A DNA stretch of 53,269 bases, taken from Bacillota bacterium (GTDB taxonomy: Bacteria > Bacillota > Clostridia > Peptostreptococcales > Anaerovoracaceae). This document shows positions 184 through 13,357 of this stretch, piece by piece (position 1 is the first letter of the stretch; every line of letters begins with the position of its first letter). The DNA lies in assembly GCA_017440275.1 (NCBI GenBank), contig JAFSHN010000037.1, forward strand, positions 1 through 53,269, read 5' to 3'. The notes under the pieces were generated by a model, which was given only the letters and a program-made list of their open reading frames with translations, did not search any database and was not told the DNA's origin. The translations under genes were made by a program, and so were the position numbers.

Positions 184-219
184 TTTAACTTTCAGATAAT
201 CAATTAGGAGATGACTAAA

Positions 220-519
220 ATGGTTAAAAAAGGCGAATGGGTACGCATTCACTCTGTTGTTCTCAAAGCCGACGAAAGAACTGCAAAGTTACCTGATGAC
301 ACTCAGAAGTGCGATCTTCAGATGTGGACAAAGGGTTTCCTGCAGGAAGATGCTGAAATCGGCGATGTTGTAACAGTAAAGACTGCGTCAAATCGTTTAG
401 AAAAGGGTACTTTAATCGAAGTAAATCCTTACTACACACACAGCTATGGCACATTTGTCCCTGAAATCGTTCAGATTGACAGACAGCTGAGAGAAGTTCT
501 GTTTGGAGGTGACGAATAA
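220..519 (+). CDS. ortA: 2-amino-4-oxopentanoate thiolase, alpha subunit OrtA
   Basis: Small subunit (99 residues) of the thiolase that cleaves 2-amino-4-oxopentanoate with CoA to D-alanine and acetyl-CoA. The sequence is a small beta-rich domain with a Gly-Glu-Trp-Val near the start and a conserved Pro-Tyr-Tyr-Thr-His-Ser-Tyr-Gly segment near residues 70-77. An ATG also occurs at 211, but it directly abuts the AGGAG at 206-210. The ATG at 220, 9 bases after that site, is the better start. Its stop overlaps the ortB start by one base (TAATG at 517-521), so the two subunits are translationally coupled, as expected for a heteromeric enzyme. The family is known from ornithine clusters. OrtA has no catalytic residues that can be named from sequence alone. 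Confidence 0.93.
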   Translation: MVKKGEWVRIHSVVLKADERTAKLPDDTQKCDLQMWTKGFLQEDAEIGDVVTVKTASNRLEKGTLIEVNPYYTHSYGTFVPEIVQIDRQLREVLFGGDE

Positions 520-1940
520 TGGCATTAGCAAAAGACTATAAATCCGTAATGGGAAGATCCAACGACATCATGAAGGAAGCTTTAGGTCTGGACTACAATG
601 ATTTTGAATCCGGCTCCGTTGCTTTCGACTATGAAGCACTGATGAAGGCTACAGGTTACACTTTAGACGAAGTAGCTAAGATTCAGGCAAGAACAGCAGT
701 TGGTAACACTCCGCTCATCGAGCTGAGAAACCTTTCCGCATTAGCAAGAAAATATGCAAAGCCAGGCTACGGTGCAAGAATCTTCGCAAAAGACGAAGCT
801 GCTAACGCATCCGGAAGCTTCAAGGCAAGAAGAGCAGCTTGCGCAGTAGCTCACGCAAAGAAGATGGGTTATAAGGGCGTAATCGCTGCAACATCCGGCA
901 ACTACGGTGCAGCAGTTGCTTCTCAGGCAGCTATGCAGGGTCTTGAATGTATCATCGTTCAGGAATGCTACGACTCCCGCGGAGTTGGACAGCCTGAAAT
1001 CGTTGAAAAGGCAAGAAAGTGCGAAGCTTACGGTGCAGAAGTAATTCAGCTGACAGTAGGACCTGAATTATTCTACACATTCCTTTCCGTACTGGAAGAT
1101 ACAGGATACTTCAATGCTTCCCTGTACTCACCATTCGGCATTGCAGGTGTTGAAACATTAGGTTACGAAATCGCAATGCAGTGCCGCGAATTAGTTGGCA
1201 AAGACCCTGATATGGTAGTTTGCACAAACGCAGGCGGCGGTATGATTACAGGTACAGCAAGAGGTCTGCAGAAGGCAGGTTGCGTGAACACTACAATGGT
1301 AGCTGCTTCCATCGACCTGACAGGGCTGCATATGGCTTCCGACGGTCAGTTCAACAAGAAGTCCTGCACAACAGGTCACACAGGTTTCGGTGTTCCTTAT
1401 GCAACTGACCCTGACCACTCCGACGTTCCTCGTTCCGCAGCAAGACCTCTGCGTTACATGGACCGTTATGTAACTGTTAAGCAGGGTGAAGTAATGTACA
1501 TGACAGAAGCACTGGCTAACCTGGAAGGTATCGAAAGAGGTCCTGCAGGTAACACAGCTCTGGCAGCAGCATTCTCACTGGCTCAGGAATTACCTGAAGA
1601 CGCAGTAATCGTAATCAGTGAAACTGAATACACAGGTGCCGGCAAGCACATCCAGCCTCAGCTGGCTTTCGCAAGAGAAAACGGCATCGAAATCAAGTTC
1701 GGCGATCCTGTTGCTGAAGACAACCCTGGTGTAAACATCGTTCTTCCTAAGGATCCAAGCTACATCAAGGCTCAGGACGCAGACATCAATCGTTTCAGAA
1801 AGTCTTTAATCAAGAAGGCCATCACTAAGGCTGGCGTATCCGAATTAACAGACGCTGACTACGAATTCTTAGCAGTTGAAACTAAGACTGACGTTGACTT
1901 CGTTAAGAAGGCAATCGACGAATTAGGCTTATTAAAATAA
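519..1940 (+). CDS. ortB: 2-amino-4-oxopentanoate thiolase, beta subunit OrtB (PLP-dependent)
   Basis: Large catalytic subunit (473 residues) of the PLP-dependent thiolase, related to the threonine synthase/tryptophan synthase beta fold (fold type II). A Ser-Gly-Ser-Phe-Lys-Ala-Arg motif near residues 98-104 supplies the expected PLP Schiff-base lysine. A Thr-Ser-Gly-Asn-Tyr-Gly motif near 127-132 matches the substrate-binding loop, and a Gly-Gly-Gly near 240 fits the phosphate-binding loop. It follows ortA with a one-base overlap and precedes oraS by 21 bases with an AGGAG site. Codon use is strongly biased (AGA for Arg, GAA/GAC, CTG/TTA), as in the whole ornithine cluster, suggesting high expression. 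The reaction is known from C. sticklandii; assignment here is by motif and context. Confidence 0.95.
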   Translation: MALAKDYKSVMGRSNDIMKEALGLDYNDFESGSVAFDYEALMKATGYTLDEVAKIQARTAVGNTPLIELRNLSALARKYAKPGYGARIFAKDEAANASGSFKARRAACAVAHAKKMGYKGVIAATSGNYGAAVASQAAMQGLECIIVQECYDSRGVGQPEIVEKARKCEAYGAEVIQLTVGPELFYTFLSVLEDTGYFNASLYSPFGIAGVETLGYEIAMQCRELVGKDPDMVVCTNAGGGMITGTARGLQKAGCVNTTMVAASIDLTGLHMASDGQFNKKSCTTGHTGFGVPYATDPDHSDVPRSAARPLRYMDRYVTVKQGEVMYMTEALANLEGIERGPAGNTALAAAFSLAQELPEDAVIVISETEYTGAGKHIQPQLAFARENGIEIKFGDPVAEDNPGVNIVLPKDPSYIKAQDADINRFRKSLIKKAITKAGVSELTDADYEFLAVETKTDVDFVKKAIDELGLLK

Positions 1941-1961
1941 AATTTATAGGAGATTTAAAGG

Positions 1962-2324
1962 ATGAAAAGAGCAGATGATTTTGAAGTAAGAAGACAGCAT
2001 ATCGCTAATCTTACTGACGAAGAACTTTATGCAAGATTCTGGGAATTAACTGATATGGTTGTTGACCCACTTCTTGAACTCGGCAGAAAAAACACTACTC
2101 CATCAGTTGAAAGATCAGTATTATTAAGAATGGGCGTATCCTCCCTGGATTGCATGCCTATCGTTAACCACTGCATGGACCACGGCTTAATGGGTAAAGG
2201 CGCTGGCCACTGTGTTTATAAGTTATCACAGTTAGAAAACATCTCAATCAGAGAAGCAAGCATCAAATTAGCTGCCGGCGAAGGTTGGGACAAAGTTGTT
2301 GAATCTTTCAAGGGAGGTAAGTAA
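1962..2324 (+). CDS. oraS: D-ornithine 4,5-aminomutase, S subunit
   Basis: Small subunit (120 residues, the usual family length) of the adenosylcobalamin- and PLP-dependent aminomutase that converts D-ornithine to (2R,4S)-2,4-diaminopentanoate. The protein is predicted mostly helical. It begins with a charged segment and contains a Gly-Lys-Gly-Ala-Gly-His stretch near residues 79-84. The ribosome site AGGAG sits at 1949-1953. The oraE start follows the stop after only two bases, so the subunits are coupled. OraS is known to be required for OraE activity but carries neither cofactor site. The adjacent oraE makes the call secure. Confidence 0.95.
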   Translation: MKRADDFEVRRQHIANLTDEELYARFWELTDMVVDPLLELGRKNTTPSVERSVLLRMGVSSLDCMPIVNHCMDHGLMGKGAGHCVYKLSQLENISIREASIKLAAGEGWDKVVESFKGGK

Positions 2325-2326
2325 TA

Positions 2327-4537
2327 ATGGCAGAATTAAAGAGAAATGAAAAGCTTGACATTGTCAATATTCTTAAAGACCTTGACAAGTATGAACCAAG
2401 AAGAAGAGGTTGGACTTGGAGAAAGAAAGCTGAAAACCAGAACATGGGACCTTTCGAATTCAGAGAAATTTCCGAACCTTTAAAGCAGAGCGTTCCATTA
2501 CCTCCAGCTAAATTCATGGAAAACATCGACCCACAGCCTATGCAGACAATCACTACTGAAATCGCTTCCGGAAGATTCGAAGACGATATCAGAAGAATGA
2601 GAATGGGTGCTTGGCACGGTGCTGACCATCTGATGGTAATCAGACATATGGGTCAGTCCCACATCGACGGTCTGATGGAAGGTACTCCACAGGGTATCGG
2701 TGGTGTTCCTATCACAAGAAAGCAGATCAGAGCTCAGAGAAAAGCTATCGATATGATCGAAGACGAAGTTGGTCGTCCAATCAACTACCACTCCTACGTA
2801 TCCGGCGTTGCTGGTCCTGACGTAGCAGTATTATTCGCAGAAGAAGGCGTAAACGGCGCTCACCAGGACCCTCAGTACAACGTACTGTACAGAGACGTTA
2901 ACTGCGTAAGATCCTTCGTAGACGCTTGCGAATCCAAGAAGGTTATGGCATGGGCAGACATGCTGCAGATCGACGGTGCTCACAATGCTAACGCAACAGC
3001 AAGAGAAGCTTGGAAAGTAATGCCTGAACTGATCGTTCAGCACGCTATCAACTCCAGATTCTCCGAAAAAGTTGGTATTAAGCCTGAAAACATTTCCCTG
3101 TCCACAGTTCCTCCAACAGCTACTCCTGCTCCATGCGTTTACATGGACTTACCATATGCAGTAGCTTTAAGAGAAATCTGCAACAGATACAAGATGAGAG
3201 CTCAGATGAACACTAAGTACATCCAGTCCTCAGCTAGAGAAGCAACAGTTACTCACGTAATGAACATGCTGATCTCCAAGTTAACAAGTGCAGACATTCA
3301 GTCCACAATCACTCCGGACGAAGGAAGAAACGTTCCTTGGCACATCTACAACATGGAAGCTTGCGACACTGCTAAGCAGACATTAATCGGTTTAGATGGT
3401 TTAATGGATATGATTGAACTGAAGAAGGACGGTCCATTAAGAGAAAACGCAAGAGACCTGAAGGAAAGAGCTCTGCTGTTCATGGAAGAAATCGTTGAAA
3501 ACGGCGGATACTTCCAGGCAGTTCAGGATGGATTCTTCGTTGACTCCGCAAAATATCCTGAAAGAAACGGCGACGGTATTGCAAGAAAGATTGAAGGCGG
3601 CGTAGGCTACGGCTTCATCTTCGAAAGAGATGAAGACTACATGGCTCCAGTAACTGCTCACTACGGATACAACAACGTAGAACAGTACGGCGGAAACCCT
3701 GAAGATCCGGCTGCATTAATCGGTGGATGTACTTTCGAAGACAGAAGCAAGATCGTTTACATCGACGAATTAGACGATGACAACGTAAATACAAGACTTG
3801 AAAAGGTTGCTAAGTACAGAACTGGCGAAGTAGTAACTCCAGAAGTAGAATGGTGCGGTGACAGAGTAGTAATGCTCACAATGATGCTCCCAGTTGAAAA
3901 GAGAGTTGCAGAAGCTGCTGCTGTAGAACTCGGCAAGAAGCTCGGTCTGGTTGATCCAGAAGTTATCTCTGCAGAAATCATGCAGGAAGCTGAAGGTACA
4001 AGAATCGAACTGAAGGGTAGAGTTGACTTCGATATCGACTTAACTACTCTGGAAGTACCACCTGAACCACACTACCTGACTGACAAAGAACTCTATGAAG
4101 AATTCGAAGGTCACGAACACATGAAGGTTGTTTGTGGTACAGTTGGCGAAGACGAACACTCCGTAGGTATGAGAGAAATCATCAACATCAAGCACGGCGG
4201 TATCGAAAAGTGGGGTATCGAATGCGTATACCTGGGAACTTCCGTACCGGTTGAAAAGATGGTTGACGCTTGTATCGAAGAAAACGCAGAAGCAATCCTT
4301 GCTTCCACAATCATTTCTCACGACAATGTTCACTACAAGAACATGAAGAGAATCCACGACTTAGCAGTAGAAAAGGGTATCAGAGACAAGATTATCATCT
4401 GTGCAGGTGGTACTCAGGTTATCCCTGAAGAAGCTGTTAAGACAGGTATCGACATGGGCTTCGGCAGAAACTCCCACGGTATCGACGTTGCTACATTCTT
4501 AGCTGAAGAAAGACAGAGAAGAAGAGGCGAAAAGTAA
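2327..4537 (+). CDS. oraE: D-ornithine 4,5-aminomutase, E subunit (B12 + PLP)
   Basis: Catalytic subunit of 736 residues. It has a TIM-barrel N-terminal two-thirds and a C-terminal Rossmann-type cobalamin-binding domain. The base-off B12 motif Asp-x-His-x-x-Gly is visible as D609-E-H611-S-V-G614, with H611 the predicted cobalt ligand. Lys622 lies 11 residues later, the spacing at which the PLP lysine follows the cobalt-binding histidine in the characterised C. sticklandii enzyme. A Gly-Gly-Thr near residues 690-692 fits the nucleotide-tail pocket of the Rossmann domain. The enzyme migrates the terminal amino group of D-ornithine by radical chemistry. It starts two bases after oraS and ends at a strong terminator, so here the cluster breaks before the MutL-like gene. 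Reading frame and key residues are intact. Confidence 0.97.
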   Translation: MAELKRNEKLDIVNILKDLDKYEPRRRGWTWRKKAENQNMGPFEFREISEPLKQSVPLPPAKFMENIDPQPMQTITTEIASGRFEDDIRRMRMGAWHGADHLMVIRHMGQSHIDGLMEGTPQGIGGVPITRKQIRAQRKAIDMIEDEVGRPINYHSYVSGVAGPDVAVLFAEEGVNGAHQDPQYNVLYRDVNCVRSFVDACESKKVMAWADMLQIDGAHNANATAREAWKVMPELIVQHAINSRFSEKVGIKPENISLSTVPPTATPAPCVYMDLPYAVALREICNRYKMRAQMNTKYIQSSAREATVTHVMNMLISKLTSADIQSTITPDEGRNVPWHIYNMEACDTAKQTLIGLDGLMDMIELKKDGPLRENARDLKERALLFMEEIVENGGYFQAVQDGFFVDSAKYPERNGDGIARKIEGGVGYGFIFERDEDYMAPVTAHYGYNNVEQYGGNPEDPAALIGGCTFEDRSKIVYIDELDDDNVNTRLEKVAKYRTGEVVTPEVEWCGDRVVMLTMMLPVEKRVAEAAAVELGKKLGLVDPEVISAEIMQEAEGTRIELKGRVDFDIDLTTLEVPPEPHYLTDKELYEEFEGHEHMKVVCGTVGEDEHSVGMREIINIKHGGIEKWGIECVYLGTSVPVEKMVDACIEENAEAILASTIISHDNVHYKNMKRIHDLAVEKGIRDKIIICAGGTQVIPEEAVKTGIDMGFGRNSHGIDVATFLAEERQRRRGEK

Positions 4538-4567
4538 AAAACTTTTAAGCATAATAGCTTGACTTGA

Positions 4568-4597
4568 GGGGCTGGGCCTTGGCCCGGCCCCTTGTTT
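4568..4597 (+). terminator. Rho-independent terminator after oraE
   Basis: An 11-bp GC-rich stem pairs 4568-4578 with 4581-4591 around a two-base TT turn, with one G-T wobble, followed by a short T-rich tail. It should end the ord-ortAB-oraSE transcript, separating it from the MutL/orr part of the pathway. Confidence 0.9.
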
Positions 4598-4625
4598 AAT
4601 GATTGGTAGCGGCTCTTTGAGCCTA

Positions 4626-4893
4626 ATGTTGACTATTTTAGAACAAATTAAAAAAGAGACAACATTTTTGTCGTAAAAAAAGCTTAGGCTACGAGAATTA
4701 GAACCATTTTCACCCCGATGTTGTCTTTATTTTGTAAAACTCAAAAAGAGACAACATAATTAGCGAAAAATGTTGACTAAATTGTAAAAAGTGCAATATA
4801 AAGTCAACGTAGGAGGGTGAACATGGTGCAAACAAGAGAATATTTCGAAAAAATGTTGACTGAAATGGAAGAATTATTAGAAAAAGTCAACAT
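4626..4893. repeat. Four imperfect 40-41-bp palindromes (locus A)
   Basis: Four units have arms ATGTTG(A/T)CT and the reverse complement: 4626-4665, 4718-4757, 4770-4810 and 4853-4893. Arm-to-arm start distances are 31, 31, 32 and 32 bases. The centres are 22-23 bases and AT-rich. Arms are identical or carry one mismatch. Unit 3 spans the promoter of the gene at 4823, and unit 4 lies inside its first 24 codons. The uniform length with variable centres argues against chance. Whether they act as DNA operators, RNA hairpins or nuclease targets cannot be told from sequence. Confidence 0.85.
4773..4802 (+). promoter_or_regulatory. Sigma-A-like promoter within palindrome unit 3
   Basis: TTGACT at 4773-4778 and TATAAA at 4797-4802 are separated by 18 bases, just upstream of the gene at 4823. 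The left palindrome arm overlaps the -35 box. The right arm (4802-4810) would cover the predicted start of transcription. Binding of any factor to the palindrome would therefore block this promoter. Confidence 0.6.
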
Positions 4894-5608
4894 ACAGTTA
4901 AAAGATTGTCCGGCGGGAAGTCTTGTTCAGTATAACAGAAACAACGCGCCAACTTATTTTCATGTTTTTAAAGAAAACGGACAAAGAAAGCGCAAAGGAA
5001 TTACAAAAGACCGCAACCTTATTGAGAAACTTGTAAGAAAAGTGTACCTTATCGAAGCGGCTTCAATTTTGGAGGCGGATATTCACGCAATCAGGAATTT
5101 TCTTAAAACATATAAGGAACCTACTTTCAACAATGTGATTAGCTGTGTTCCGGAAAGATTTAGGGAGATAGGGGAATCTTTGCTGAAACCGCAGCCTTCC
5201 GGATGGGCAACTGAAGCCTATAAACAATCTGACTACAAACCTGAAATGCGACGTTTCACAACTTCGAGATTTTTAAAAGTCAGAAGTAAATCGGAACTGT
5301 TGATCGCAGAAAAACTCTACGAACATGAAATAGACTTTAGATATGAGCAAGTGATTGCTTTTGAATATAAGGAGTTTGCACCGGATTTTACGATTCGAAG
5401 GAAATCCGACGGCAAAACCTTTTACTGGGAACATTGTGGGAGAACCTCCGACGAAATCTATAATAAGCACAATCGTTGGAAACTGGCCCAATATGAAAAG
5501 ATGGGAATAGTTCCCTGGGACAATTTGATTATTACATATGACACCGAGGACGGACTCTTGAATATGGCACTCATTGAGAGTGAGATTATAAATAAATTGA
5601 AAGGGTGA
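4823..5608 (+). CDS. Uncharacterised PD-(D/E)XK-nuclease-like protein
   Basis: A 261-residue protein of unknown function. The N-terminal 35 residues are a charged helix. Residues about 35-60 look like a small beta domain rich in Lys/Arg (Arg-Lys-Arg-Lys-Gly), a plausible nucleic-acid-binding part. The C-terminal third resembles a PD-(D/E)XK nuclease core: Ser-Lys-Ser-Glu with E158, Pro-Asp-Phe-Thr with D188, and Trp-Glu-His with E203. The usual final lysine is not obvious (E203-H-C). I recall similar unnamed proteins as widespread in gut Clostridia; that is memory, not a search. The start is ATG 4823, six bases after AGGAGG (4811-4816); an in-frame GTG at 4817 directly abuts that site and is less likely. 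The gene sits among palindromes, one of which lies within its 5' coding part, and the GNAT gene follows after five bases. Confidence 0.7.
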   Translation: MVQTREYFEKMLTEMEELLEKVNIQLKDCPAGSLVQYNRNNAPTYFHVFKENGQRKRKGITKDRNLIEKLVRKVYLIEAASILEADIHAIRNFLKTYKEPTFNNVISCVPERFREIGESLLKPQPSGWATEAYKQSDYKPEMRRFTTSRFLKVRSKSELLIAEKLYEHEIDFRYEQVIAFEYKEFAPDFTIRRKSDGKTFYWEHCGRTSDEIYNKHNRWKLAQYEKMGIVPWDNLIITYDTEDGLLNMALIESEIINKLKG

Positions 5609-5613
5609 GTCAA

Positions 5614-6123
5614 ATGATAGAAACTAAACGTATGCATTTATTGGAAGCAACGGAAGATCAAATCGAAGAGATTATTGAACTCGAAGCACACCCTGAAAAT
5701 CGTGACTACCTTTGGGTGGGCACCTACGAAGAACATAAAGATGAGATTGCAGATCCCAATCATCTTTTGCTTATTTTCAAAGCGAAAGAAACCGCACAAA
5801 CTGTGGGATACGCCCTCATTAGGCTTAATCTTAAGTCGGAAATTTTTGAACTGAGAAGAATTGCAATTTCAGAAAAACGAAAAGGCTATGGCAGAGAGGC
5901 GATGGAAGCGCTTTTCAAAGAAGCCTTTGAAAAATTAGGAATTAACAGATTTTGGCTGGATGTTTATCCGGACAACATCTTTGGTATAAATTTATATGAA
6001 AGCCTCGGCATGCACAGGGACGGCGTGTTGAGACAAAATTACAAAGCAGAAAGAGGTTATCTTGATCAGATAATTTACTCAATGCTAAAGAGTGAATATT
6101 TCGAAAGGAAGCAAAATGGATAG
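5614..6123 (+). CDS. GNAT-family N-acetyltransferase
   Basis: A 169-residue protein with the GNAT acetyl-CoA-binding signature: a beta strand followed by Arg-x-x-x-Gly-Tyr-Gly-Arg-Glu-Ala-Met near residues 89-99, then a C-terminal Asn-x-x-Gly-Ile-Asn-Leu-Tyr-Glu-Ser-Leu-Gly segment typical of RimI/RimJ-like members. It transfers an acetyl group from acetyl-CoA to an amine; the substrate is unknown. I prefer ATG 5614, nine bases after AAGGG, to the GTG at 5605, which abuts that ribosome site. The stop overlaps the next gene by eight bases. It is part of the three-gene block inserted between oraE and the MutL-like gene, co-transcribed with the nuclease-like gene upstream. Confidence 0.85.
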   Translation: MIETKRMHLLEATEDQIEEIIELEAHPENRDYLWVGTYEEHKDEIADPNHLLLIFKAKETAQTVGYALIRLNLKSEIFELRRIAISEKRKGYGREAMEALFKEAFEKLGINRFWLDVYPDNIFGINLYESLGMHRDGVLRQNYKAERGYLDQIIYSMLKSEYFERKQNG

Positions 6124-6563: not shown

Positions 6564-8321
6564 ATGAAAGTAGATGTTTTAGTAGCAGAAATCGGTTCAA
6601 CCACAACCGTTGTTAATGCATTTAAAGATTTGGACAGCGAAAATCCGGTTTTCTGGGCACAGGGGCAGGCTCCTACATCCGTTCTTGACGGCGACGTAAG
6701 AATTGGACTTCAGGGAGCAATCGACGATCTCTGCAAAAAGATGAATATTGAAAAACTGGAATATGACGAAATGCTGGCAACTTCTTCAGCAGCCGGCGGA
6801 CTTAAAATGACGGTTCACGGTCTGGTTTATGACATGACAGCAAAAGCTGCAAAGGAAGCAGCCCTTGGTGCAGGAGGAATAATTCACGATATTACAGTTG
6901 GTCGTCTCAGAAGAACTGACCTTGCACGCATCAAAGAGATTAATCCAAATCTTATTCTCATTGCAGGCGGCGTAGACTTCGGAGAAAGAGACACTGCTAT
7001 TTACAATGCGGAAATGATCAGAACACTGGGACTTAAGACTCCTGTCGTTTATGCAGGCAATATCGAAAATCAGGAGGAAATGAAACTGATTTTCGACGAA
7101 GAAAGCGGACAGTATCTGTATCTTGTAGATAACGTTTATCCTAAAATAGACACTCTCAACGTGGAACCTTGCCGTAAGGTAATTCAGGATGCCTTCGAAG
7201 ACCACATCACTCATGCACCGGGAATGGAACACGTCAGAGATATGGTAAACGGTCCAATCATTCCAACGCCGGGTGCAGTAATGGAATGCACAAAGCTTTT
7301 GTATGACTGCCTCGGAGACGTTATGGTTATTGACGTAGGCGGAGCTACAACTGATATTCACGCGGTGGCAGAAGATTCTGATGCGGTTGCAAGAGTTCTG
7401 ACAGCACCTGAACCAAAAGCAAAGAGAACAGTAGAAGGTGACCTGGGCGTTTATGTTAACAGAATGAAGGTTATCGAATCCATCGGCGAAGAAAAACTGA
7501 GAAAAGAGTGTGATGAAAAGCTGGGTATCGACCTGGACAAGACTCTTGAAACTTACGTGGCAATTCCAAAGACTGAGGACGAATTCAAACTGGTAGAAAG
7601 ACTCACTGAAGAGGCAGTGCTTCGTTCTGTGGAAAGACACGCAGGTCAAATCAGATATGTTTACGGACCATCAGGCCGTCAGACAGTGGCAGAAGGTAAG
7701 GACCTGACTCAGGTAAAATACATTGTCGGCACAGGCGGTGCACTCACAAGACTTCCACATCGTGTAGAAATAATGAAGAAAATTCCTAAGGACAACCAGA
7801 CAGGAATGAAGCTTTATCCGGGCGATGCAGTTAAGATTTTGGTAGACAACGACTATATCATGGCTTCTCTGGGGGTTCTTTCCAAGACTCATAGACAGGG
7901 AGCAATCAAGTTGCTGTCCAAGAGCCTGTGTGTAGATCTTAAAGAAACAGAACATACTGTAGGAAAAGCAGCGTTTATTGAAGAATTACAGAGAATGAAT
8001 GCTGCAAAACAGGCGAAGGAAGAAGAACGCCTGAAGCACATCGAAGAAATGGAAAAGATGGGCTATGATATGAGCGAATACAAGAATCCGGAAAAAATCG
8101 GCGGTGCAACAGCGGAAGAAGTGGCTGAAGCAAAGAAAGAAGCTTTGATGGGCGACAGAACAGTCAAGAAAGCGGCTGATTTTATCGAAAGCTCAGATAA
8201 GAATCCGGACGAATATAATAATCACGTTATGAGAGGATGCGGCGAAGTAGACGGAAGACCTAACTGCAATCGTGACTGCAAACACTGCATGCGCAAGCAC
8301 TGTCCATATCGCCAGGAGTAA
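6564..8321 (+). CDS. MutL/GlmL-like ATPase of the ornithine cluster
   Basis: A 585-residue protein of the GlmL/MutL family associated with B12-dependent carbon-skeleton and amino mutases (not the mismatch-repair MutL). It has an actin/hexokinase-like ATPase fold: Glu-Ile-Gly-Ser-Thr-Thr-Thr near residues 9-15 is the phosphate-1 loop, Asp-Val-Gly-Gly-Ala-Thr-Thr-Asp near residues 259-266 the phosphate-2 loop, and Gly-Thr-Gly-Gly-Ala near 391 the adenosine loop. The C-terminus carries five cysteines in a Cys-x3-Cys-x2-Cys-x3-Lys-x-Cys-Pro-Tyr arrangement, suggesting a metal or Fe-S site. The likely role is reactivation or protection of OraS/OraE cobalamin. The ribosome site GAAAGGA precedes it, and orr follows after 12 bases. 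Confidence 0.9.
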   Translation: MKVDVLVAEIGSTTTVVNAFKDLDSENPVFWAQGQAPTSVLDGDVRIGLQGAIDDLCKKMNIEKLEYDEMLATSSAAGGLKMTVHGLVYDMTAKAAKEAALGAGGIIHDITVGRLRRTDLARIKEINPNLILIAGGVDFGERDTAIYNAEMIRTLGLKTPVVYAGNIENQEEMKLIFDEESGQYLYLVDNVYPKIDTLNVEPCRKVIQDAFEDHITHAPGMEHVRDMVNGPIIPTPGAVMECTKLLYDCLGDVMVIDVGGATTDIHAVAEDSDAVARVLTAPEPKAKRTVEGDLGVYVNRMKVIESIGEEKLRKECDEKLGIDLDKTLETYVAIPKTEDEFKLVERLTEEAVLRSVERHAGQIRYVYGPSGRQTVAEGKDLTQVKYIVGTGGALTRLPHRVEIMKKIPKDNQTGMKLYPGDAVKILVDNDYIMASLGVLSKTHRQGAIKLLSKSLCVDLKETEHTVGKAAFIEELQRMNAAKQAKEEERLKHIEEMEKMGYDMSEYKNPEKIGGATAEEVAEAKKEALMGDRTVKKAADFIESSDKNPDEYNNHVMRGCGEVDGRPNCNRDCKHCMRKHCPYRQE

Positions 8322-8333
8322 GAGGAGGAAAAT

Positions 8334-9422
8334 ATGTACCCTAGATTAGTTGTAGATTTAAAAAAGTTAGAAAGCAACCTTGATGCGGTTGCAAAGATTA
8401 CAAAGGAAGAAGGAAAGTGCTCCCTGATGATCGTAACAAAGGGTCTTTGTGCAGATGCAGAAATGGCAAAGATGGTTGCGGGACACAAGGCAGTTGACTT
8501 TATGGCAGACTCCAGAGTAATGAATATTAAGACATACGCTGATGAAGCAAGAAAGAACGGCAAGAAGACAGTTCTTCTGAGAATCCCAATGCATGATGAA
8601 GTGGCAGATGTGGCAAAATATGTAGATTTGAGCTTCAACTCCGAACTTTCCACAATCAGACTTCTTAATGAAGAAGCAAAGAAACTGGGTCTGGTTCACA
8701 ACATCCTGCTGATGATTGACCTTGGTGACCTGAGAGAAGGTATTTTCTATCAGAACGAAGATCTGATTTTCGAAACAGTTGAAGAAATTCTTTCCCTCGA
8801 AAACATCAACCTTTACGGAATCGGCGTAAACCTGACTTGTTACGGCGCAATCATTCCTAAGAATGACAACCTTTCCAATCTGACTGCTCTGGCAGCTAAG
8901 ATTGAAGAAAAGTTTAATATCAAGCTGGAAATGGTATCCGGAGGAAACTCCAGCTCCATTTATTTAGTGGGCAAGGGAGAACTTCCTGCAGGCATTAACA
9001 ACCTGAGACTGGGCGAATCCTTCCTCCTTGGAAACGATACAGCTTACGGTGAAAAGTTACCTGGAACTGTAGGCGATGCACTGGTGCTGGAAGCACAGAT
9101 TGTTGAACTGAAAGAAAAACCATCTCTGCCTATCGGTGAAGTAGGCGTTGACGCTTTCGGCCAGAAGCCTTACTACGAAGATAGAGGAATCATCAAGAGA
9201 GCAATCATTGCAGTTGGTAAGCAGGACACTGATATCGACAGTATGGAACCAATTGATGAAAAAATCGACATTTTAGGCGGAAGTTCCGACCACATCATCC
9301 TGGACGTTACAAAGTCCGACAAGGAATACAAGGTGGGCGACGTTGTAGCATTCACGCTGGGTTACGGTGGAATGTTAAAGACTGCCACATCCGCTTATGT
9401 TGAAAAGGCTTACGTTAAATAG
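8334..9422 (+). CDS. orr: Ornithine racemase
   Basis: A 362-residue PLP-dependent racemase with an alanine-racemase N-terminal TIM barrel; the C-terminal part is shorter than in Alr. Lys36 in the Thr-Lys-Gly motif is the predicted PLP lysine. A Ser-Gly-Gly-Asn-Ser-Ser-Ser segment near residues 202-208 fits the PLP-phosphate pocket, and Arg-Leu-Gly-Glu near 224-227 is also conserved. It converts L-ornithine to D-ornithine, the OraE substrate. The ribosome site AGAGGAGG lies just upstream, and the MutL-like gene is 12 bases before it. Two paralogues occur at 47200 and 48309. Position within the pathway marks this copy as the true ornithine racemase. Confidence 0.93.
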   Translation: MYPRLVVDLKKLESNLDAVAKITKEEGKCSLMIVTKGLCADAEMAKMVAGHKAVDFMADSRVMNIKTYADEARKNGKKTVLLRIPMHDEVADVAKYVDLSFNSELSTIRLLNEEAKKLGLVHNILLMIDLGDLREGIFYQNEDLIFETVEEILSLENINLYGIGVNLTCYGAIIPKNDNLSNLTALAAKIEEKFNIKLEMVSGGNSSSIYLVGKGELPAGINNLRLGESFLLGNDTAYGEKLPGTVGDALVLEAQIVELKEKPSLPIGEVGVDAFGQKPYYEDRGIIKRAIIAVGKQDTDIDSMEPIDEKIDILGGSSDHIILDVTKSDKEYKVGDVVAFTLGYGGMLKTATSAYVEKAYVK

Positions 9423-9443
9423 AAAAAGAAAGTGTTTTAAAAG

Positions 9444-10748
9444 ATGAAAGACTACTTAACTCAGTATAAAGAAAAACTGACTTCTGCAGAAGAAATCGCT
9501 TCTCGTATCCAGTCGGGGCAGTATATAGCAACAGATAATATGTTGGCAGCACCTATCGCAATTCTTAACGCGATAGGTTCTCGTGCCGAAAAGAACCTGG
9601 TAAAAGGATTGTCCGTATATACTACACTAGACGTGTACGATTATCCTTGCTTTAAACCTGAAATTGCAGAAAACTTCCGCGGAATTTCCTGGTTTTGTGG
9701 TGCGAGTGCAAGAAAAGGTATAAACAGCGGACTGGGAGATGTTCTTCCGGGCTATTACAGAGATTTCCCAAGGATTGTGAGAGATTCGAGACCTATGGAT
9801 GTATTCTGTGCGGCAGTAGGACCTATGGATAAGCACGGCTATTTTACAATGGGAACTGTAGGCTCCCAGTCTGAAGCATGTATAGAAAAAGCAAAATATA
9901 TCTATCTTGAAATTAATGAAAATATGCCGAGAGTGTCAAGTGCACCGCTGATTCATATTTCACAGGTTGACGGTGTCTGCGAAAATACAATTCCTCTCAA
10001 GGGACTTCCACAGGTAGAACTTGATGAAAAGAGCAAGCTGATTGGACAACTGATTGCTGAAGAAATCCCAAATGGGGCGACTCTCCAGCTAGGGATAGGT
10101 GCAATTCCTGATGCAGTAGGAACCGCATTGATGAGCAAAAGAAATTTGGGAATACATACAGAAATGTTTACTGACAGTATGGTGGGCCTCCTGGAATGCG
10201 GAGCAGTGGATAATACCATGAAACCAATTCACAGAGGAAGAACCGTTTGTACATTTGCTTACGGATCCCAAAGACTTTATGACTACATAGACGACAATCC
10301 ATCAGTACTGATGTTACCTGTTGACTATGTAAATGACGTACAGAGAATCGCAAGTCATCCAAACTTTATGTCCATCAACTCCGCACTTGAAGTTGATTTC
10401 TTCGGACAGACTGCTGCAGAATCTGTTGGAACCTTCCAGATTAGCGGTACAGGCGGACAGGTTGACTATGTGAGAGGAGCTGTTGAGTCAAAAGGAGGCA
10501 AGAGTTTTATCGCTTTCCACTCTACTGCTAAAGACGATACTATCAGCAGAATCGTACCGATGCTTACTCAAGGAGCTATCGTAACAACCAGCAAGAACGA
10601 CATTGACAACATAGTTACTGAATACGGCATTGCCAGACTTAGAGGGAGAACTCTCAGCGAAAGAACAAAGGCTCTTATCGCCATTGCTCATCCAAAATTC
10701 CGTGAAGAGCTGACCTTTGCAGCTAAAAAGCAGAATATATTAATCTAA
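9444..10748 (+). CDS. Acetyl-CoA hydrolase/transferase family CoA-transferase (4-hydroxybutyrate/butyrate type)
   Basis: A 434-residue class I CoA-transferase of the 4-hydroxybutyrate CoA-transferase/butyryl-CoA:acetate CoA-transferase family. The predicted catalytic Glu240 lies in His-Thr-Glu-Met-Phe-Thr-Asp, close to Glu238 of the characterised Clostridium aminobutyricum enzyme. The Gly-x-Gly-Gly-Gln loop near residues 335-339 binds CoA. It moves CoA between acetyl-CoA and a short carboxylic acid; which acid cannot be fixed by sequence alone. It follows orr after 21 bases and ends at a terminator, so it is the last gene of the ornithine unit. It is well placed to use the acetyl-CoA from the OrtAB reaction, possibly for butyrate formation. 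Confidence 0.88.
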   Translation: MKDYLTQYKEKLTSAEEIASRIQSGQYIATDNMLAAPIAILNAIGSRAEKNLVKGLSVYTTLDVYDYPCFKPEIAENFRGISWFCGASARKGINSGLGDVLPGYYRDFPRIVRDSRPMDVFCAAVGPMDKHGYFTMGTVGSQSEACIEKAKYIYLEINENMPRVSSAPLIHISQVDGVCENTIPLKGLPQVELDEKSKLIGQLIAEEIPNGATLQLGIGAIPDAVGTALMSKRNLGIHTEMFTDSMVGLLECGAVDNTMKPIHRGRTVCTFAYGSQRLYDYIDDNPSVLMLPVDYVNDVQRIASHPNFMSINSALEVDFFGQTAAESVGTFQISGTGGQVDYVRGAVESKGGKSFIAFHSTAKDDTISRIVPMLTQGAIVTTSKNDIDNIVTEYGIARLRGRTLSERTKALIAIAHPKFREELTFAAKKQNILI

Positions 10749-13011: not shown

Positions 13012-13357
13012 TTACATTGATTCGATTTCTTCAACAGACAACTTTGTTATTTTTGAAATAAGGGCAATTTCAATGCCTTCATTTTTCATAGCCCTAGCCG
13101 TCTCAAAAGTTTTGTTTTGGATTTCATTTTGCCAAAAACTGTTTCTTTCGTTAGCGACTTCTTCAGTAACTCTTTCCGTGACTTGCTCAGTAACTCTCTG
13201 GGTCACTTCTTCAGTTCTTCGTAACCTTGTCCTTGGCGCAAGATGTAACCATCCATATTAGATTGATACTTTCTGCTGCGTTTGCCTATGACTTTTCTTT
13301 CATTACTTCGTGAAAAAGAAAGTCGTCGCACAGGTTCAATTCTTTAATTGTTCTCAT
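13012..13357 (-). pseudogene. Decayed Rpn/PD-(D/E)XK-family transposase-like nuclease gene
   Basis: On the minus strand, GGAGG precedes ATG at 13357, followed by a start typical of the Rpn/PDDEXK_2 family (Met-Arg-Thr-Ile-Lys-Glu-Leu-Asn, then Asp-Asp-Phe-Leu-Phe). The frame stops after 23 codons. The region to 13207 can be read in other frames as a Tyr-rich helix typical of the mid/C-terminal part. The final 64 codons (13206-13012) encode the usual repetitive Val-Thr-Glu helix and a C-terminal Met-Lys-Asn-Glu-Gly-Ile-Glu plus Leu-Ser-Val-Glu-Glu-Ile segment. Most of the nuclease core is deleted. Full-length relatives are roughly 250-330 residues. It is a remnant of a mobile, recombination-promoting nuclease family. 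Confidence 0.75.

Follow-up and report, generated by a model that had tools for sequence, protein, structure and literature searches.

Why should four palindromes of matching size lie upstream of, and inside the start of, a gene for a PD-(D/E)XK-like protein? The locus was found in the window, by which is meant the whole stretch of 53,269 bases that was analysed. A sequence-only reading had proposed that the encoded protein may recognise these palindromes as an autorepressor, as a nuclease with protected sites, or as part of a selfish element comparable in logic to REP/RAYT pairs. The array, the gene and its relatives are described here, and these proposals are weighed against one another.

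Palindrome array in the window

The four palindromes were present at the positions first read, with the two arm starts of each unit 31 or 32 bp apart (Table 1). An array score based on the number of units that are alike in arms and spacing gave 4 units and 68 on positions 4300-5300 and was matched by none of 1000 shuffles (best shuffle: 4 units, 60). The arms had been described as ATGTTG(A/T)CT and its reverse complement; this holds overall, except that the right arm of unit 3 (ACGTTGACT) carries one mismatch and that the A/T position is unequal between the arms of unit 1 (ATGTTGACT / ATGTTGTCT), pairing at this position between the two arms of a unit not being constant. Some units show extended partial pairing. 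The placement of unit 4 within the gene was likewise correct, and unit 3 does overlap a TTGACT/TATAAA pair, which is taken as promoter boxes by reading only. Rather than being scattered at random, the outcome on which the first reading was to fall, the 7 exact copies of the 9-mer ATGTTGWCT in the 53,269 bases all lie inside the array (shuffle mean 1.11; 7 copies reached in 1 of 100 shuffles). No second array of at least 4 units was found when the window was scanned in overlapping 2-kb pieces.

Table 1. Features of the palindrome array and its gene in the window
Feature	Coordinates	Strand	Remarks
Palindrome unit 1	4626..4665	.	half-sites 4626-4634 and 4657-4665; start distance 31
Palindrome unit 2	4718..4757	.	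half-sites 4718-4726 and 4749-4757; start distance 31
Palindrome unit 3	4770..4810	.	half-sites 4770-4778 and 4802-4810 (the latter with one mismatch); start distance 32; overlaps promoter-like boxes
Palindrome unit 4	4853..4893	.	arm starts 4853 and 4885; start distance 32; intragenic, codons 11-24 counted from ATG 4823
Promoter-like boxes, TTGACT 4773-4778 and TATAAA 4797-4802	4773..4802	+	spacing 18 bp; by reading only
PD-(D/E)XK-like gene	4823..5608	+	261 aa from ATG 4823; open frame from GTG 4817 = 263 aa
N-terminal part, putative site-reading domain	4823..5149	+	limit approximate; assigned from the Fibrobacter contrast
Nuclease-like core, E158, D188, E203, H204	5282..5434	+	invariant in the 62-sequence alignment
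Self-contained unit (array and gene)	4598..5617	+	between oraE terminator and GNAT start; limits approximate

Unit 4 has a counterpart at the gene start in three relatives of the same genus, in which both arms are altered alike (TGTTGGC..GCCAACA in L019 and L015, TGCTGAC..GTCAGCA in L027). The half-site can thus change in concert, even through coding sequence. The oraE-type neighbour of the window gene also adjoins L019 and L015 and does not adjoin L027 (by reading).

The protein family

Judged by its conserved residues, the family is an unnamed PD-(D/E)XK-like family of ~260 aa. Invariant columns in an alignment of 62 sequences include R154, S155, K156, E158, D188, E203, H204 and G206, which supply the acidic triad E..D..E conserved in PD-(D/E)XK proteins. 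The lysine expected two residues after the last acid is absent: the six copies in the window's own genome read E-H-F/C/M/N where the ExK lysine would stand, and catalysis is uncertain for that reason. A lysine at position 220 is at least 90% conserved in the alignment.

No match to the window protein was found in Pfam, NCBIfam or PHROG, and Pfam searches with the 62 relatives returned only scattered weak matches, each in one or two members. In PADLOC, the C-terminal half matched the end of PDC-S68, a candidate defence protein of ~1,200 residues (E 6e-28). Seven plasmid records gave partial matches, five of them annotated AAA family ATPase, and three phage records matched weakly and in part. 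The likeness to PDC-S68 (PADLOC-DB) and to the plasmid AAA ATPases consists in a similar C-terminal nuclease part; PDC-S68 proteins are large multi-domain proteins of ~1,200 residues, whereas the window protein (261 aa, matching through its C-terminal part only) joins a short N-terminal part to the nuclease part and is paired with arrays. Sequence searches against solved structures gave no significant match, the nearest being the Holliday-junction resolvase T7 endonuclease I (E 0.29-0.42). The order of its motifs, RS..E ... PDF, is similar (profile match E 0.29, not significant), but the ExK lysine is absent from the window protein, and we know of no sequence-specific arrays associated with T7 endonuclease I.

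Pairing of gene and array

Scanning of genome contigs yielded 196 confirmed relatives, of which the best 80 loci were kept. These best 80 belong to Lachnospiraceae, other Bacillota, Fibrobacter and Treponema, and a few of them are genes that also occur in the same-genus set. A locus passed the array test when it had at least 3 units and exceeded all 20 shuffles. By this measure 48 of the 80 fetched relatives passed, against 13 of 126 distal stretches of the same loci, and at least two of the 13 passing distal stretches are arrays themselves (L081, L086). The distal stretch of L081 is a diverged, gene-less array, and the gene at L081 has arrays on both flanks, which are direct repeats of 248 bp with 93% identity. 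Another kind of repeat accounts for at least two of the 48 passes (L072, L080), L080 having a real array as well. In eight Fibrobacter genomes 17 of 19 tested loci passed; 8 of the 19 were already among the 80, so that the new loci amount to 9 of 11 passing, and seven rows (second pieces, a 40-aa fragment and ~1,077-aa proteins) were left out. The family is patchy, with a member at E <= 1e-20 in 8 of 118 genomes of the window's class, the window's own included, and with up to 9 matches in one genome.

The window genome holds five paralogs at 30-35% identity, and next to each of its six copies is an array whose arms differ from those of the others: TGTTGWCT (window), CCTAAAA, TCCCA, TTCCAT, GGATAGTT and TGTATCAA. 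The unit count was above all 10 own shuffles at 6 of 6 copies. The copies are embedded among different housekeeping-type genes, each standing alone and not in a defence island (names by reading). Among same-genus rows from other genomes, 6 of 16 passed the array test (L013, L014, L019, L020, L023, L028) and no array was detected in the other 10; some of the failing rows are gene fragments, and the detector misses arrays, as at L025, which fails the test yet has three units in separate inspection.

Homologues without nearby palindromes had been expected to count against the link between protein and palindromes. Arrays were found at 48 of the 80 relatives, and none was detected at the remaining 32 or at the 10 same-genus rows; since detector misses and gene fragments are among the failing rows, the array-less homologues weaken the pairing without refuting it. 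The observations support the conclusion that gene and palindromes belong together.

Geometry and constraint of the units

Neighbouring units have centre-to-centre distances that group around 42, 52, 63, 72, 83, 95 and 105 bp. The best period was 10.4 bp (R = 0.65, 156 distances; 99.9th percentile of a jittered null 0.32), and R was 0.64 (p about 4e-8) when one distance per motif was used (42 motifs). Units therefore tend to be separated by whole turns of DNA, the spacing to be expected if a protein assembles on a single face of the double helix. The centre distances in the window are 92, 52.5 and 83 bp, of which 92 is not a whole number of turns.

Covariation between arms was assessed in 39 arrays (199 units), a few of which (e.g. 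L072, L080) are not true arrays of this kind. Complementarity was kept in 18 of 295 variant cells, against 16.1 +/- 3.0 after shuffling. As no compensatory change is seen between arms, the symmetry is that of two half-site copies and not of a stem, and the arms have the look of half-sites paired on double-stranded DNA rather than of hairpins.

In orthologous Fibrobacter array pairs, 0 of 144 arm positions, 14 of 171 centre positions and 57 of 347 linker positions had changed, the totals being taken over three pairs in one direction. By pair, arms, centres and linkers had changed at 0/64, 6/76 and 28/138 positions (L092/L105), 0/48, 2/56 and 28/160 (L148/L155), and 0/32, 6/39 and 1/49 (L150/L153). 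Half-sites were picked as exact in the first member of a pair, so only the second member could differ. The reverse comparison L153/L150 gave 1 of 48 arm positions changed, and comparisons with the more distant L118, which is the same place as L139, gave 0 to 6 changed of 56-73.

Protein part that probably reads the site

Two Fibrobacter loci with related surroundings, L105 and L109, have nuclease parts that are 98% identical (dS 0.19), N-terminal parts that are 58% identical (dS 0.70), and different arms. High DNA identity between them starts ~300 bases into the gene, spans about L105:2801-3500 and is lower on both sides, a pattern suggesting that copies with unlike arms have exchanged nuclease segments or have them in common. 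A swap of array and N-terminal part as one block was considered and dropped, since identity falls on both sides of the nuclease segment.

Pairs with the same arms have N-terminal identities of 84-99%, except with L118 (55-60%) and for L109 against L106 and L116 (51%); the arms of L109, L106 and L116 share the TACATACT core. Arm similarity was correlated with both protein parts in 30 of the 48 arrays, after exclusion of those with fewer than 4 units, fewer than 230 aa or no motif, and of L040, L072, L079 and L080. The correlation was 0.63 and the partial correlation 0.28 for each part (N-terminal part: partial p 0.0005; 0.12 among 422 more distant pairs). Arm similarity tracks both parts equally, so the assignment of site reading to the N-terminal part is drawn from the Fibrobacter contrast, by which the N-terminal part probably reads the half-sites.

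Empty site and dispersed arrays

In a genome of the same genus (G001), a short spacer separates the terminator of the oraE-type gene from GNAT, with no array or gene between; in the window, the oraE terminator and GNAT are about 1.0 kb apart, and the interval holds the four palindromes and the gene. By this empty site in a relative, as known for transposable elements, the unit behaves as a self-contained insertion, though it is one case and loss by deletion in G001 is possible. At the pepT locus, where 4 of 8 genomes gave a match and G007 and G011 have a different neighbour, no clean empty site was found.

The window arm pattern was found at 6 places in its genome, 3 at the gene and 3 elsewhere (reversed control 0), and the three places away from the gene make up two gene-less arrays between other genes. 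Units with ACCTATAAA arms numbered 20, 50, 12 and 35 in four Fibrobacter genomes that have the cognate gene, where 3-4 units lie at the gene itself, and 0, 6, 0 and 1 in four Fibrobacter genomes where no cognate gene was found; reversed-pattern controls gave 0 in all 8. In this clearest case the scattered arrays accompany the resident cognate gene. Units with TACATACT arms numbered 12, 4, 38 and 8 in Fibrobacter genomes with a gene beside that arm and 13, 0, 9 and 0 in G006, G007, G008 and G013, draft genomes in which no gene was found; the counts overlap, so units and gene are poorly linked for TACATACT. The Fibrobacter array regions that were fetched lie mostly between open frames and have varied neighbours.

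Six Lachnospiraceae genomes were chosen for TGGGYRTA-type arms. Four Lachnospiraceae genomes had 40, 29, 7 and 4 TGGGYRTA units, and counts in the remaining eight genomes searched were 0-1 (reversed controls 0-1); G018 and G019, chosen for a similar gene arm, had only 1 and 0 exact units. Nine three-unit elements were fetched from G017, eight with 51-52/70 spacing and one with 51/91, which is longer by about two turns. The elements lie in either orientation, their flanks are unrelated, one of them (L201) adjoins a family gene, and no target-site duplication was seen by eye around the nine. A search for scattered array copies in G003 found none. Most scattered copies are unlike each other in their centres, so recent movement is not evident. 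In viral contigs, no encoded relative was confirmed among 52 candidate peptide-pattern stretches, and two scans for arm patterns gave single units only among the matches listed (36 stretches in one scan), which by a rough estimate is chance level.

Proposed explanation and its rivals

The explanation put forward, which we regard as about evenly balanced between right and wrong, is a self-contained, mobile-like module whose protein would read its own palindromes and cut or nick there, and whose arrays would spread as non-autonomous copies. Its components would be a single gene, encoding a protein of two parts, and next to it an array of units ~40 bp long, in each of which two half-sites face each other at a distance of about three helical turns. 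The N-terminal part would read the half-sites on double-stranded DNA, the protein would assemble on one helix face across several units, and the C-terminal PD-(D/E)XK-like part would cut or nick at or near the array. Recombination or transposition begun at the array would let arrays spread, and the gene would move together with its array. As each module keeps its own half-site, several could coexist in one genome without crosstalk. Gene-array pairing, helical phasing, the lack of compensatory arm change, scattered arrays that accompany a resident cognate gene in the clearest case, and one empty site support this explanation. Points against it are the missing ExK lysine, the relatives at which no array was detected, the 92-bp distance in the window, the failure to see target-site duplications by eye, the TACATACT counts, the negative search for scattered copies in G003 and an arm similarity that tracks both protein parts equally. 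Binding of the protein to its own half-sites would follow well from the data; which part binds, cutting and mobility are further steps that we infer. Somewhat short of even probability is the more far-reaching proposal of a new class of selfish element, in which a PD-(D/E)XK nuclease would spread or copy helically phased palindromic half-site arrays as the double-stranded-DNA counterpart of REP/RAYT, with a fast-changing, possibly exchangeable N-terminal reader and with coexisting orthogonal versions that have private targets.

The protein could instead be a DNA-binding regulator with a nuclease-derived fold, repressing its own gene and a regulon with the arrays as operators. The overlap of window unit 3 with promoter-like boxes and the position of unit 4 at the gene start are in its favour, as are half-sites of a protein-binding type (no arm covariation) and, in two of three array pairs, conserved arms next to drifting linkers. 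However, the 48 arrays divide into 17 that lie solely upstream of the gene, 19 solely downstream and 12 that occupy both of its sides, so sites at the gene's own promoter are not the general arrangement and simple autorepression, one of the roles first proposed, fails as a general rule. The varied neighbours of the Fibrobacter array regions, about 6 of 20 of which lie between convergent open frames (longest-frame calls only), also fit poorly, and a pure regulator would not need E158, D188 and E203, which are invariant in 62 sequences; we consider this reading unlikely. A host-maintained guard network, in which scattered sites would keep the nuclease in an inactive assembly until destruction or takeover of the chromosome frees it against an invader, is quite improbable in our judgement. 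The match of the nuclease part to PDC-S68, the conserved arms of orthologous arrays and the viral-contig results (no relative confirmed among the 52 stretches, single arm units among the matches listed) agree with such a network. The genes of the window genome, however, stand alone among housekeeping-type genes (by reading) and not in defence islands, three phage records do match the protein weakly and in part, and the patchy presence (8 of 118 class genomes) fits selfish elements equally well.

Hairpins in RNA or single-stranded DNA, as in a REP-like or guide-like RNA array, would account for inverted symmetry with variable centres and for the extended partial pairing of some window units. 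With 18 of 295 cells complementary where 16.1 are expected, the arms do not covary, and helical phasing between units also speaks against hairpins; this reading was rejected as very improbable. Chance clustering or a detection artefact would explain the detector background of 13 passing distal stretches in 126 and the passes, at least two of 48, that stem from another kind of repeat, but not an array score reached in 0 of 1000 window shuffles, the recurrence of the in-gene unit in three relatives or reversed-pattern controls of 0 in all 8 Fibrobacter genomes. For the main cases chance is refuted, and its overall probability is negligible.

Comparison with known systems

RAYT genes are described as flanked by their own palindromes, with different sets in different genomes, and REP copies as dispersed and going with a resident RAYT gene, palindromes and gene coevolving (PMC2817692). 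RAYTs are HUH tyrosine enzymes that act on single-stranded, folded REPs (PMC8266576). The self-contained module proposed above is similar in that a gene lies beside its own palindromes, sets are private and copies are dispersed; it differs in its PD-(D/E)XK-like protein, in the lack of arm covariation, in its helically phased units and in lower copy numbers (0 to 50 exact-arm units per genome searched). Where a REPtron has an HUH tyrosine (IS200/IS605-type) protein, E158, D188 and E203 form a PD-(D/E)XK pattern; where it has folded hairpins, the statistical test on 39 arrays and 199 units gave no sign of them; and where its gene is flanked by two inverted palindromes, arrays on both sides were found in 12 of 48 cases. 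The link in abundance between gene and palindromes is clear for ACCTATAAA and unclear for TACATACT. Since the HUH enzyme, the hairpin and obligate two-sided flanking are all missing, the module is not filed as REP/RAYT. The REP/RAYT-like logic suggested from the sequence survives in the private arrays at 6 of 6 own-genome copies, in the arrays at 48 of 80 relatives and in the scattered copies, but not in the form of hairpin palindromes. In its genome organisation the module works, by analogy, like REP/RAYT.

MITEs and other non-autonomous elements are short dispersed copies in which the recognised parts are conserved and the interiors diverge. The array copies resemble them in being dispersed, with conserved arms and diverging interiors, and differ in having multiple internal phased units in place of one pair of ends and in that target-site duplication was unseen by eye at array elements.

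No published description of such a gene-plus-array system was found in a literature search that had preprints and most subscription papers outside its reach, and the module looks like a gene-plus-target genetic element of a previously undescribed kind. The family is found in many gut and rumen bacteria, e.g. Lachnospiraceae and Fibrobacter. If the proposed explanation is true, it would be a hitherto undescribed means by which repeats establish and maintain themselves in bacterial genomes, and REP/RAYT-like logic would have arisen with a different enzyme. It would also provide dozens of natural protein-site pairs with long (~40 bp) bipartite sites, in which the recognition code is directly testable, and a possible source of new DNA-binding tools.

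Additional observations

A palindromic motif resembling TATGGTAAAATTTTACATA lies at most 150 bases upstream of several family genes (L050, L045, L003 and others). With up to 5 mismatches allowed, 9 of the 80 fetched loci and 2 of the 6 copies in the window genome have it, compared with 24 of 1600 shuffles, and it may be a shared operator. A Rhizobium plasmid AAA ATPase gene (L366 1336-9336), with the same C-terminal nuclease part, adjoins a gene for a NACHT protein, a defence-like setting. Downstream of the intact gene at L109, a stray fragment resembling the nuclease part (4642-4731) suggests past duplication and decay. The arrays of G014 (Agathobacter; L193, L196, L199, L200) show expansion with periods of ~145 or ~83 bp, and the ends of several contigs fall near or within arrays. 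A gene-less array of the window arm type (L009 1500-1950) lies directly upstream of a T-box-like leader, which precedes a synthetase-like gene (both by reading).

The module in the window is surrounded by what we take to be an ornithine fermentation-type cluster (211-4537 and 6564-10748), presumably with OrtA/OrtB, D-ornithine aminomutase-like, MutL-like and racemase-like genes. Further on, a short open frame on the minus strand (13012-13206) resembles, as we assume, an Rpn/YhgA-type PD-(D/E)XK tail and is possibly a gene remnant.
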